This document shows positions 38,627 through 43,033 of a stretch of DNA of 64,000 nt, one piece after another. Made by a program: the position numbers and the translations under genes. Position 1 is the stretch's first letter; every line of letters starts with the position of its first letter. This DNA is from Dehalococcoidia bacterium (GTDB lineage Bacteria; Chloroflexota; Dehalococcoidia; SZUA-161), in contig JACWAE010000048.1 in NCBI GenBank assembly GCA_014874385.1, positions 1 through 64,000 of the forward strand, written 5' to 3'. The notes beneath the pieces were generated by a model. That model searched no databases, had not been told where the DNA came from, and worked only from the letters and a program-made list of their open reading frames with translations.

Positions 38627-39550
38627 CTAAATAGGGTCTAACATCTTGAACATTTCCGGAATTATCGTGTCAGTTTTGCCAAAATAGGCGTAAACTTTAT
38701 AATATTTTACGAGTGCTTCTAGAAATTCTAGACTCTTACAAGCGACAAATCTTTGTGACCTCTCCATCATTGCCGCATTGAATTCAATTGAGAATGCTGG
38801 AGGGAGCACTCTATTTGGGGGTTTGTTAAGACTAACCAACAATATTTTTCCAGAGACAGGGAAAACAAATTCTTTTAGACAGTTTACAGGATCATTGTCG
38901 CTATCTCCCATACTAATAATTGGGCTATCTCCCACAATATTCCAGCTCTTATTATCTTTCGTATAGAAGAACCGCCAATTAACTAATCTCGCAACCCAAT
39001 CATCTTTAAAAAATGGAACGAACGGAATTATATGTTTGAAAGCTTTCTTAAATGCTTGAGATTGTCTTATTATTTCTCTAACTTCCTTAGGCGCTTTTTC
39101 GCCACTCTTATTTAAGAGTTTCAACCAATCAAACTCACCTATCTCCTCGAACGCTTTTTCTGATAATTTCTCTACAACTTCAACATTGCTTGGCAATCTC
39201 CAATGAAGAAACAATAAGAAGAGAAAAAGGTTCATTGCATCTGAGACTTTAATAGGTGTTTTTTCATTAGATTCTCTAATCTTGTTTAACGAACCCCAAC
39301 ATTGATTTTCGATCGCTGTGTACCCTTCCTCCAACAAATCTGATGAATCGCCACCTGGAAACAATACTGCATTCAAATTGTTTTCAAAGAAGGCGCCGCT
39401 TGGATTGGTTAGAAAGATATTGTCTTTCCGTTTGTCGTAGACAAAGAAAGTATTCTGGCTATTCGTAAACCCCTTCAAATAGAACTGGGGTAGGTAGTGA
39501 TGTTTCTTGCTAGGTTTTTTCATTTGCGAAGCCGATTTACACTCTGTCAT
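38627..39550 (-). CDS. DUF4238 domain protein
   Basis: A protein of about 307 residues with the DUF4238 opening KKHHYLPQFYLKGFTNSQNTFFVYDKRKDNIFLTNP near residues 14-50. The family is uncharacterised and turns up in accessory and defence-associated regions. A middle segment SWNIVGDSPIISMGD and C-terminal YYKVYAYFGKTDTI follow. The preferred start is the ATG at 39550, overlapping the upstream stop as ATGA; TTG at 39565 is the alternative. Base composition is more AT-rich than the housekeeping genes on either side, as is its partner gene. No catalytic residues can be assigned. Confidence 0.8.
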   Translation of the reverse strand: MTECKSASQMKKPSKKHHYLPQFYLKGFTNSQNTFFVYDKRKDNIFLTNPSGAFFENNLNAVLFPGGDSSDLLEEGYTAIENQCWGSLNKIRESNEKTPIKVSDAMNLFLFLLFLHWRLPSNVEVVEKLSEKAFEEIGEFDWLKLLNKSGEKAPKEVREIIRQSQAFKKAFKHIIPFVPFFKDDWVARLVNWRFFYTKDNKSWNIVGDSPIISMGDSDNDPVNCLKEFVFPVSGKILLVSLNKPPNRVLPPAFSIEFNAAMMERSQRFVACKSLEFLEALVKYYKVYAYFGKTDTIIPEMFKMLDPI

Positions 39551-40533
39551 AACTGCGCTTGGCAACGACTAAACATATCGTCCCACCACTTCTTTTCCCA
39601 GTCATCCGTTACCAGTTCACCCATTGCTTTCAGCATAGCTATTAACTTATCCACTTGCTCGCTCATACGTCCTGGCGAGCTAAATTCTACTTCCTTTGAT
39701 AGCACATACAAGGCGCTTATTGTATATTGTATTACATGGTCCGGGTCCTTAACATCCATACCCATGGGAAGCGTCCCAGTTCTAAGCGACTCCAAAACTG
39801 CTTGGTAAGCTCTATCCGGCAGACCGCTCGCCCTAAAACGCAACTTAAGGAAATCACGTAAATCCATCAGGATACCTCCATACGCTGACAAATCCTGCTT
39901 CCACTTCCCCTTCAGCACCTCCCTATTTGCAGCGCCGAACCTAATCCCCCTCAACGGCAATATACTCAACGCTAGTGCAACATACAGTAAGGCTCTGTTC
40001 GGAGCGTCTTTGTATAGCTTTATTAAGAATTCACCACGCCCAAGCGTTTTAAGACCCAGATACGGCTCAAGCATTGCCGTCATCTTCTTACCAGGTACAG
40101 AGAACCCAATCAAGACCGTTTTTGGCGAGTAATCAACCCCTTTAGGGAACACCATCATCCATTTCGCATCACTTTCCCTACTCCCGGTCTTCCCCGAACC
40201 CAACTCCTTTCGTTTTCCTTGAATTACCCTAACAAATTCTTTGCCAAAAACTTTTTCCAAATGTGAAACCATTATCGGTTCAGGAAAGGCACCCGCCATA
40301 ATCATCATTAAACCCACGACAGCTTCCAGTTTTTGCTTAGGAGATAAAAAACTCGATTTATCTATCATCTCATACAAATCTTCTCTTTCTGCTACCGTAA
40401 GCTTACTCTCAACCGATTCAAACGCAATATGACATGACGTATATTTTTCAAGCAGCTGTTCAACAAACTCTCGACTAACTGAGTCCCTATATTTCGCAAA
40501 ATATTTTTCCTCTACATATTTTCCCTCTGCCAT
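39547..40533 (-). CDS. Unrecognised 328-aa protein, first gene of DUF4238 operon
   Basis: I do not recognise a family. The ATG at 40533 has GGAGG five to nine bases upstream and sits about 16 bases from a predicted transcription start; a start at 40557 would lie in the -10 element. The protein is mostly helical in character, soluble, with a basic middle (QGKRKELGSGKTGSRESDAKWMMVFPKG) and a hydrophobic segment RALLYVALALSILPLRGIRFG around residues 184-204. It ends DDWEKKWWDDMFSRCQAQL. The coupling to the DUF4238 gene by a four-base overlap implies the two proteins work together. Confidence 0.7.
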   Translation of the reverse strand: MAEGKYVEEKYFAKYRDSVSREFVEQLLEKYTSCHIAFESVESKLTVAEREDLYEMIDKSSFLSPKQKLEAVVGLMMIMAGAFPEPIMVSHLEKVFGKEFVRVIQGKRKELGSGKTGSRESDAKWMMVFPKGVDYSPKTVLIGFSVPGKKMTAMLEPYLGLKTLGRGEFLIKLYKDAPNRALLYVALALSILPLRGIRFGAANREVLKGKWKQDLSAYGGILMDLRDFLKLRFRASGLPDRAYQAVLESLRTGTLPMGMDVKDPDHVIQYTISALYVLSKEVEFSSPGRMSEQVDKLIAMLKAMGELVTDDWEKKWWDDMFSRCQAQL

Positions 40534-40555
40534 ATTCACCTCCCCAACTTCCGGC

Positions 40556-40584
40556 ATTATAGATTGTTCCGATTCTAAAGTCGA
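40556..40584 (-). promoter_or_regulatory. Promoter of the DUF4238 operon
   Basis: On the minus strand TCGACT at 40584-40579, 17 bases, TATAAT at 40561-40556. The -10 is perfect and the -35 weak. The predicted start near 40549 gives a short leader containing GGGGAGG. Confidence 0.6.
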
Positions 40585-40761: not shown

Positions 40762-40885
40762 TTATAGCATAGTTTACCCTTCACCTATATATAATTATCG
40801 AGAGTACGCAGATTTCCTCCCACCCCGGAAAACCAAGGTGGGAAAAGAGGGTTTACATATACTCCCGTGGGATAAACTTGACAAA
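40762..40885. repeat. Diverged copy of the intergenic module upstream of the toxin-antitoxin genes
   Basis: Shares in order TTATAGCATAGTTTA (also at 37625), a CTTCAC plus TATATAA-like stretch, CCAAGGTGGGA, and GTGGGATAAAC followed by TTGACAAAT with the 37621-37745 region. The bases between have diverged. The module brings a promoter to both the toxin-antitoxin pair and the RNA gene below. Confidence 0.6.
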
Positions 40886-40906
40886 TGAAGCTGAGTATGT
40901 TATATG
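40878..40906 (+). promoter_or_regulatory. Promoter of the putative RNA gene
   Basis: TTGACA at 40878-40883, 17 bases, TATATG at 40901-40906. The same GTGGGATAAAC context precedes the -35 as in the toxin-antitoxin promoter. Confidence 0.75.
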
Positions 40907-40911
40907 TAGTA

Positions 40912-41187
40912 CACGGAGCCAAGAGGTGCTTCCGAATCCAGGTTCAGGAGGTGCGCCGTGAGGCTTCACGCAATGTATGGAGTCAGGCAGGTGGATTGTT
41001 GATGCCCTGCCATGGGGTAGGGCAAGCGGACCCTCGAGTTCAATTCGAGGAAAAGAGGTCGAGAGGTTAGTCTCATAAATAGAGCCTCGTTCGGTGGTGA
41101 TCACTGAAAAAGAGTTGGGCTCGAGAAGCTAAAACAGAAGGTAATCAGTGGTGGAGGGCGCTGCAAAAGTGCCCTCCACATTTTTTA
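40912..41187 (+). ncRNA. Putative structured non-coding RNA, about 275 nt
   Basis: This interval runs from a consensus promoter to a strong intrinsic terminator and contains no convincing protein. Local stems are visible: CGTGA/TCACG at 40957-40970, a nine-pair stem around ATGG at 41003-41024, CCTCGA/TCGAGG with a GTTCAAT loop at 41032-41050, and GAGG/CCTC around CTC-N7-GAG near 41065-41095. A longer pairing of ATCACTG with CAGTGGT would close the 3' part. I compared it by eye with RNase P, tmRNA, SRP and 6S RNA and do not see their signatures. The start is inferred from the promoter and is approximate. Confidence 0.6.
41151..41186 (+). terminator. Intrinsic terminator of the RNA gene
   Basis: GTGGAGGGC and GCCCTCCAC form a perfect 9-bp stem around an 11-base loop, followed by ATTTTTT. 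It is one of the strongest terminators in the window. Confidence 0.92.
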
Positions 41188-41307: not shown

Positions 41308-41616
41308 CTAGCCCCGGCGCAGCTTGCTCTCAACTGAACTAATCTTGCTTTCCATCGTAGCTCTCTTGTCTCTGCGGTCATCTATGTTAACGATGGTAAC
41401 GACTCTCTGCACGCCTTCTCCGAACACACTCTCGTGCATTTGCCTGACCATGTTCAGCACTTTATCCAGATCGCCTTCGAGCACGGTGCCCATCGGGGTC
41501 AACCGGAAGGCCACAGACTTCTGACTCTGCAAAACCTTGAGAGACCGGGCAACGTACTTGCTGAGGGAAGTTGTTTTGGTTCCCAGGGGAACGATACTTA
41601 CCTGGACTATTGCCAT
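41308..41616 (-). CDS. MTH1187 family thiamine-binding protein
   Basis: A 102-residue ferredoxin-like fold protein of the MTH1187/YkoF (DUF77) family. The N-terminus MAIVQVSIVPLGTKTTSLSKYVARSLKVLQ and the middle RLTPMGTVLEGDLDKVLNMVRQMHESVFGEGVQRVVTIVNIDDRRDK match the family pattern. Members bind thiamine or related ligands and may have a transport or sensing role. The ATG at 41616 is preceded by GGGGGTG; the GTG nine bases upstream lies within that site. No thiamine genes are adjacent. Confidence 0.87.
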   Translation of the reverse strand: MAIVQVSIVPLGTKTTSLSKYVARSLKVLQSQKSVAFRLTPMGTVLEGDLDKVLNMVRQMHESVFGEGVQRVVTIVNIDDRRDKRATMESKISSVESKLRRG

Positions 41617-41661
41617 TGCTGTCACCCCCTGACTCGGGCAAGCTGCTCGAACTATACAGGT

Positions 41662-42561
41662 TTATTTGACCTGCACCCTGCCCACGTTGCATTTGATTTC
41701 CAGCTCCACCTGCTTGCCACTGGTGCCGAAATCTTCAGACATATAGTAATCGCCGCTCTGGGGAAAGCGACTCTTATCTATATCTATGCCGGTTACATTG
41801 GTATCCAGAAGTATTCTGGCGGCGACCCCCGCGGGAACAGTCACCTCAACATTAGAAGCGTTTGCGGTTATCTTGATATGGGTAGTGCCTGCCGATGACG
41901 GGGCGGTGACCTGACAACTGCCAGCGTTCAATTCTACGATGACGTCAGGCGTCAGCAGCTTGCTCAGATTGAGGGAGATACTGCTTGCGGCCGACTTGAT
42001 ATCCAATGTCAGCGGTATTTTTGGAGTGAACATGGCCTGCCAGTCAAGGTAAGGCCCGCTCCAGAAGAACCGGTTAATACTTCTGGCAGTCAAATGAAGG
42101 CTGCCATTCCCATCCTGCTGCTGGAAATCAGCTTCAATGCCTCCATCTCCACCTCTGGAACTTGAATCTACCTCCACAAGGTTCGCTGAGTCATTCCCCA
42201 GGCTTCCCAGGGAGAGACTCCCTCCATTGAAGTCTATGGCAATACTGGCTCGTTCGAGATTCGCCAGAGGTTCAGAGTAGCTCTCAGCGACTGCGGCCGG
42301 TTGATACTGCCAGTAAGCTATGCCCAGGCAGGCCCACAGCAGCGCAAATACCAGTATGCTCGTTGCCCAGCGACTGTAGCGGCTGAGAAGAATATTGAGG
42401 CCGATTATGATTATCAATACCGGCCAGAAGCGCCACAGCGTCCCCCAGACTCCCCAGGGAAGAACATCAAGAGCCTGCAGGAGGAACACTATGCCCAGAA
42501 AAAGCAGTATTATGCCCCAGATAGGAGCACCATGCGCCCGCCGGGGTCTCATCTCAGACAT
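41662..42561 (-). CDS. LiaF-like membrane protein
   Basis: About 299 residues. After a basic N-terminus come paired membrane segments (PIWGIILLFLGIVFLLQALDVLPWGVW, FWPVLIIIIGLNILL, ATSILVFALLWACLGIAYW), the LiaI-LiaF type transmembrane domain, then a long beta-rich exterior domain ending LELEIKCNVGRVQVK-like (LiaF C-terminal/DUF4097-like). LiaF relatives report envelope damage to sensor kinases. The ATG at 42561 has GGAGG five bases upstream and follows the PspC stop by one base. It is cotranscribed with the PspC gene, forming an envelope-stress pair. Confidence 0.8.
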   Translation of the reverse strand: MSEMRPRRAHGAPIWGIILLFLGIVFLLQALDVLPWGVWGTLWRFWPVLIIIIGLNILLSRYSRWATSILVFALLWACLGIAYWQYQPAAVAESYSEPLANLERASIAIDFNGGSLSLGSLGNDSANLVEVDSSSRGGDGGIEADFQQQDGNGSLHLTARSINRFFWSGPYLDWQAMFTPKIPLTLDIKSAASSISLNLSKLLTPDVIVELNAGSCQVTAPSSAGTTHIKITANASNVEVTVPAGVAARILLDTNVTGIDIDKSRFPQSGDYYMSEDFGTSGKQVELEIKCNVGRVQVK

Positions 42562-42562
42562 G

Positions 42563-43033
42563 CTACCTCCGGCTAGCACCGAATATGATAACCAGGCCTA
42601 TGACCAAAATAACCAGGGCGATGAAAACACCCCAGTGGAACCACCAGAATAAACCGAAGTTACTCAAGAGTATAACTATGCCGATAACGACAATTAATAT
42701 CCCTAAGAAAGTTCTGCGCCCATGGTGAAAGCTGGCGACATCCGTCGACTCACCTTCTTTCCGCTCAAAAGTAGAACGAATCTCGCTGGCGGAGGCTTTG
42801 ATGTCCTCTATATTCTCTTTTATCGCTTCCCGCGGTGTGGCGACTTTTGAGCCCTCCGGGGGGACGATGATTGCCATTATGATATAAGCGAGGATGCCCA
42901 GACCGTCGGCAAATATCAGCAACACCGCTACTATTCTTACGATAACTGGATTGATGTCAAAATACTTCGCCAGGCCGCCGCACACCCCCCAAATCATTCT
43001 ATCTGTCCGACTTCGATAAAGCCTTTTCTCCAT
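42563..43033 (-). CDS. PspC domain membrane protein
   Basis: A 156-residue protein with an N-terminal PspC domain ([56 protein letters not shown]), a charged linker, and two further hydrophobic stretches ([40 protein letters not shown]) like the LiaF membrane region. PspC relatives sense membrane stress. The ATG at 43033 is chosen because AGGAG lies six bases upstream; the ATG six bases before has none. No pspA is present in the window. Confidence 0.87.

Follow-up and report, generated by a model that had tools for sequence, protein, structure and literature searches.

Comparison of homologs supports an undescribed family of structured RNAs, each about 270 bases long, spread across the Chloroflexota, one member of which lies in the window, the whole stretch of DNA analysed (64,000 nucleotides from a Dehalococcoidia bacterium). 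The anatomy of the RNA and its translation signature emerge directly from this comparison, and from them we infer ribosome pausing and a function in trans. The best explanation, held tentatively and given somewhat less than an even chance, is a dual-function RNA: the GVWQVD peptide, while still nascent, would pause the ribosome at a hairpin, P2, and thereby govern how the 3′ domain folds or acts. The features of the RNA in the window are as follows.

40878 to 40883, forward strand: −35 element TTGACA, read from the sequence and exact in 56 of 63 homologs.
40901 to 40906, forward strand: −10 element TATATG after a 17-nt spacer, from the sequence and homologs.
40911 to 41187, forward strand: transcript of about 270-277 nt, both ends placed from promoter, alignment and terminator.
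40947 to 40953, forward strand: Shine-Dalgarno sequence GGAGGTG, nearly invariant across 63 homologs.
40958 to 41002, forward strand: 14-codon frame VRLHAMYGVRQVDC and stop, with a GTG start, from a coding test across relatives.
40997 to 41003, forward strand: the 7 nt that separate the Asp13 codon from hairpin P2, with the spacing measured across homologs.
41004 to 41023, forward strand: hairpin P2, GCCCTGCC...GGGTAGGGC, directly 3′ of the frame, from covariation.
41033 to 41047, forward strand: 5′ arm of the long helix P3, in which both sides change in 13 of 15 pairs.
41063 to 41088, forward strand: hairpin P4, within P3, from covariation.
41090 to 41108, forward strand: hairpin P5, within P3, with changes on both sides in 6 of 7 pairs.
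41111 to 41125, forward strand: 3′ arm of P3, pairing with 41033-41047, from covariation.
41151 to 41187, forward strand: intrinsic terminator GTGGAGGGCGCT...AGTGCCCTCCAC followed by a T tract, from a terminator search and homolog pairs.

An earlier note on this DNA had described a consensus promoter (TTGACA-17-TATATG), several stable stems and a strong terminator with a T tract, and all three were borne out. The promoter is present in the sequence and is backed by conservation across the 63 homologs: in 52 of them the −10 element ends a fixed 5 nt before the 5′ end of the aligned RNA, and promoter match scores were mostly 10 of 12 in homologs versus mostly 6-8 of 12 in random stretches from the same loci. 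The promoter scan did not report the site at 40878-40906, since TATATG lacks the final T and is excluded by the rule of the scan, so that the promoter claim for this RNA depends on conservation among homologs. The terminator hairpin was detected at 41151-41179 as 12 pairs followed by ATTTTTT, and 11 of 11 pairs in its core showed changes on both sides among homologs. Between promoter and terminator, the folding energy of the forward strand went far beyond that of shuffled sequences (−113.5 kcal/mol, z = −5.63, with none of 200 shuffles folding as well), while the opposite strand gave z = −2.84.

Searches with blastn found the locus at 90% identity within the same genus and at 67-70% identity over almost its full length in other genera of the same family, with shorter matches in other families. 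A covariance model built from the 5′ half of the RNA had matches (E ≤ 0.01) in 87 of the 393 Dehalococcoidia genomes searched, with up to 7 copies per genome, and in 11 genomes outside this class (E ≤ 1e-4, 400 Chloroflexota genomes searched); because genomes were sampled these counts are lower bounds, the E-values are rough owing to a short calibration, and most of the genomes are metagenome-assembled. The genome to which the window belongs holds a single copy, and the search of 400 genomes across the phylum gave no match in the single-contig genomes of family f16. A codon-degenerate pattern scanned against 84,980 species returned 64 loci, 59 of which were labelled Dehalococcoidia, Dehalococcoidales, Chloroflexi or Chloroflexota, or lower ranks of these. 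Among the five labelled as other phyla, three have no in-frame start codon and look like chance, and two (L164 and L168) bear the full element and may be misbinned contigs. Judged by these matches, the RNA family seems confined to the Chloroflexota. The codon pattern had no match among 2.9 million viral contigs, and no similar sequence was found in phage and plasmid records; the suggestion that the RNA is phage- or plasmid-derived was therefore abandoned in favour of a chromosomal family that is widespread in the phylum.

Comparison with Rfam, proposed in the earlier note, yielded no family that matches the RNA: the whole window gave no match at gathering in Rfam 15, and permissive filters returned chance-level matches only. 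By eye, signatures of RNase P, tmRNA, SRP and 6S RNA had been judged missing. For the first three this judgement stood, as RNase P, tmRNA and a small SRP RNA were located elsewhere in the genome (at C92, C84 and C18 of G000), away from the RNA; for 6S RNA it could be followed only part of the way, since RF00013 matched neither at the locus nor elsewhere in the genome, using a model that gives a match in only 5 of 14 control genomes and is weak for this phylum. The size of the RNA, its single copy in the window's genome, its deep conservation and the missing 6S match are what a divergent housekeeping RNA might display, and yet we regard that identity as exceedingly unlikely: three of the four candidates are accounted for elsewhere, even permissive filters gave no Rfam match, 6S RNAs contain no comparable frame, and the missing 6S match says little given the control genomes.

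The earlier note had found no convincing reading frame between the promoter and the terminator. In every close homolog, however, GGAGGTG is followed by a short gap, a start codon and a 14-codon frame, with the family consensus M(R/K)LHxx(Y/F)GVWQVDx, and in the window this conserved frame occupies 40958-41002. Coding potential was assessed on 33 sequences whose detection had involved no codon pattern. Differing codons had a mean BLOSUM62 score of 2.1, versus −0.13 (sd 0.43) in permuted columns, and the synonymous fraction was 0.39 versus 0.18 expected from column permutation; none of 200 permutations reached either value, in a test that is strong but inexact because permutation preserves the composition of columns and not relatedness. 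BLOSUM scores were negative in the two other frames over the same region, and variability at third codon positions was about double that at first and second positions, and more than triple within GVWQVD. Comparison across relatives thus indicates that the 14-codon frame is under coding selection and bears a translation signature. Of the proposal that this is a new class of non-coding RNA, the structured class holds, given the lack of an Rfam match, the phylum-wide homologs and the covariation, whereas the label non-coding is not supported because of this frame. The longer frame at 40885-41070, put forward as a possible conserved protein, starts upstream of the −10 element, and related sequences interrupt it. 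Extension of the peptide by frameshifting was also considered and rejected: of the 63 sequences, only 1, 3 and 0 keep the 3′ domain open across 45 codons, for the three frames respectively. Among open-access papers, none was found to mention GVWQVD, and none was recognised as describing the RNA.

Covariation of the helices was counted in an alignment of 63 sequences from the class Dehalococcoidia. In the consensus structure 90.2% of cells were paired, versus 35-50% when the 3′ partners were slid by 1-3 columns, and 44 of 57 pairs changed on both sides, with 358 such cells versus 111 in shuffles; alignment and folded structure are interdependent here, which the slide and shuffle controls offset only partly. 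Homologs with paired changes, for which the earlier note had suggested blastn and covariance testing, are found across the Chloroflexota. Covariation supports P2, P3, P4, P5 and the terminator: in P2, 7 of 8 pairs have both-side changes and 94% of cells are paired, and in P4 the corresponding values are 5 of 5 scored pairs and about 80% of cells. Comparison of the aligned sequences therefore indicates a 3′ domain, about half of the RNA in length, that forms a covarying three-way junction in which P3 encloses P4 and P5. Outside the Dehalococcoidia, single-sequence folds and a four-sequence consensus retain the layout of frame, P2, long helix around two hairpins and terminator; despite this common layout, their 3′ domains are different in primary sequence. 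Two further structural candidates were rejected. One is a hairpin within codons 3-8 of the frame, whose pairs show one-sided variation and so give no support independent of coding. Sequestration of the Shine-Dalgarno sequence was rejected as a common switch, its mean unpaired probability (0.38) being that of the RNA as a whole; the copy in the window, at 0.10, is unlike the rest of the family.

The distance between the frame and P2 was constrained throughout. The conserved residues GVWQVD end 5-7 nt before P2 in all 76 sequences measured, as would be looked for in an arrest leader, and the best-stem count places the Asp13 codon 6 or 7 nt from P2 in 74 of the 76. Among the 63 class sequences the distance is 7 nt in 34, 6 nt in 28 and 5 nt in one, and it is 7 or 6 nt in all 13 further loci (12 outside the class, and L214); because a best-stem search decided where P2 begins, 6 versus 7 is partly a matter of one extra base pairing or not. 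The stop codon shifts between members while the distance from GVWQVD to the hairpin stays: it is at codon 15 in 39 of the 63 class members and further on in the other 24, where the frame enters P2, and in the 13 further loci it is the first or second codon after Asp13. Constant spacing despite a shifting stop fits a fixed position of the ribosome relative to the hairpin better than it fits termination or a peptide product alone. A hairpin 6-7 nt downstream of the A-site codon is the usual spacing that holds ribosomes in programmed frameshifting, and with the Asp codon placed in the A site, P2 begins 6-7 nt downstream.

Variants of the RNA were observed in two settings. Some Dehalococcoidales carry a short variant consisting of a frame, MKLNxLYGVWQVD, and the hairpin, without the 3′ domain (L072, L073, L074, L123, L130, L162, L168 and L181). 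It sits about 100-370 nt before genes whose products have exported-looking N-termini, and one genome (G311) contains several copies in a single 12-kb stretch. From its position, the short variant looks like a shared cis leader. In addition, paralogs in two genomes, G011 and G185 (loci L061-L067, in G011, and L215), keep GVW and differ in the residues that follow, the peptides ending in GVWQVTS, GVWIFPS, GVWLFPS or GVMEVYS. Because residues after GVW vary among paralogs, one arrest code does not fit all of them.

The genes around the RNA were compared among loci. In the family to which the window belongs, a gene for a NusA N-terminal domain lies downstream and a class II (prolyl-type) tRNA synthetase gene directly upstream, and in other families the downstream genes encode peptidase M16, cysteinyl-tRNA synthetase (CysS) or ribulose-phosphate epimerase. 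As a separate observation, cysteinyl-tRNA synthetase-like genes occur near the RNA in three unrelated lineages (L104, L120 and L207), one of them confirmed by Pfam. The downstream neighbour is on the same strand at 37 loci and on the opposite strand at 23 (p = 0.09), and in the window the next genes run on the strand opposite to the RNA; there, the proteins encoded in 41308-42579 are a member of the thiamine-binding family and a LiaF-like membrane protein. The segment immediately 5′ of the RNA, 38627-40557, encodes two proteins, a DUF4238 protein of 312 aa and one of 336 aa that matches nothing in Pfam. The sister genome (L084) has different genes at this position, so 38627-40557 may be an accessory insertion, which makes the accessory patch proposed by the earlier note plausible.

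As the adjoining genes are not conserved, the RNA appears to be free-standing. A role as the leader of a conserved downstream gene was rejected because main-family loci have no such gene, and control of a gene in cis, for which no conserved cis gene was found in the main family, is possible only for the short variant. The succession of frame, hairpins and terminator does resemble an attenuator, and in a few Dehalococcoidales the variant lacking the 3′ domain precedes putative exported-protein genes, as expected if the RNA were a cis-acting leader working through ribosome-mediated attenuation. We consider this very doubtful for the family, because downstream genes vary among families, the terminator is kept in every case, and the next gene lies on the opposite strand at many loci, the window included (23 opposite, 37 same), which weakens it. 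What was found instead are the hallmarks of a dual-function sRNA, namely a conserved promoter and terminator of its own and a small frame with a Shine-Dalgarno sequence and coding selection.

In the dual-function mechanism that we tentatively favour, the RNA would be transcribed from its own sigma70-type promoter and translated from the Shine-Dalgarno frame. The ribosome would read up to GVWQVD and pause once Val12/Asp13 is at the peptidyl-transferase centre, so that its leading edge rests against P2. By holding P2 open or blocking it, the paused ribosome would determine how the 3′ domain folds, how stable it is or whether it is available, and this domain would then act in trans. With no gene under its control in cis, the RNA most likely delivers its output in trans, by way of either the 3′ domain or the paused complex, and the conservation of the 3′ domain makes a separate riboregulatory activity, by base pairing or protein binding, likely. 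The short variant is consistent with pausing, keeping frame and hairpin before genes as a cis leader would. Several points count against pausing: a trans-acting peptide would give coding conservation too, RNA packing could partly fix the spacing, and the 24 of 63 members that lose the codon-15 stop have a frame that runs into P2.

The first of these points bears on the main rival, in which the peptide is the product and the RNA functions as the mRNA of a trans-acting peptide of 14 residues, its helices stabilising the message or tuning translation. The strength of coding selection and the near-invariance of the Shine-Dalgarno sequence are in keeping with this, as are paralogs within one genome that differ in their C-termini, as for different partners, and a precedent exists in the 14-residue leader peptide peTrpL, which acts in trans in Sinorhizobium (PMC7298713). 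It is nevertheless somewhat unlikely, given that the 3′ domain makes up about half of the RNA, with helices kept by covariation phylum-wide, and that the Asp-to-P2 spacing is constant even where the length of the C-terminus changes. Conversely, the RNA might be a trans-acting sRNA or scaffold whose translation merely protects or remodels the 5′ end, the sequence of the peptide mattering little. The deep conservation of helices and terminator agrees with such a role, for which the frame-bearing sRNAs SgrS and VcdRP offer precedents (PMC4021124, PMC8672173), but amino-acid conservation of GVWQVD exceeds what the nucleotides would require, and we judge it distinctly improbable. A bolder form of the pausing mechanism, which we rate as rather improbable, is that the 14-residue peptide parks the ribosome and that the ribosome-RNA complex is itself the regulator or a translation sensor, making this a core Chloroflexota RNA whose paralog ends read different signals.

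Recognition of this RNA adds a phylum-wide family that is absent from annotation; standard annotation misses it on two counts, Rfam having no entry for the RNA and gene callers passing over so short a gene. Its carriers are bacteria abundant in sediments and the deep sea, mostly uncultured. The constant codon-to-hairpin spacing gives a precise prediction of ribosome position and, should pausing prove true, arrest peptides would be extended from the control of genes in cis to the control of a free-standing RNA.

Several known systems share part of this anatomy. The RNAs raiA, ROOL, GOLLD and OLE are large, long, deeply conserved, free-standing structured RNAs of orphan function. The Chloroflexota RNA is likewise long, deeply conserved and free-standing; it differs in having no Rfam match and in carrying, by its coding signature, a translated frame within the conserved core. 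With SgrS/SgrT and VcdRP/VcdP it has in common a free-standing, structured RNA with its own promoter and terminator, a Shine-Dalgarno sequence and a small frame, but those systems encode longer peptides (29 aa in VcdP) and their RNAs base-pair with mRNAs (PMC4021124, PMC8672173), whereas here a peptide of about 14 aa ends at a fixed distance from a hairpin and is followed by a three-way-junction 3′ domain. In Sinorhizobium, rnTrpL/peTrpL is a small RNA with a 14-aa leader peptide, both of which act in trans, and rnTrpL is leaderless and a by-product of trp attenuation (PMC7298713). The Chloroflexota RNA also bears a frame for a peptide of about 14 aa; unlike rnTrpL, it has a strong Shine-Dalgarno sequence, is not associated with a trp operon and has no sequence in common with it. 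Finally, ErmBL undergoes erythromycin-dependent arrest at Val-Asp in a short leader and regulates the ermB resistance gene carried by the same transcript (PMC4935803). A short frame with Val-Asp near its end and a downstream hairpin recur in the Chloroflexota RNA, a resemblance in principle; unlike ErmBL, most Chloroflexota loci control no gene in cis, and arrest at GVWQVD is a prediction.
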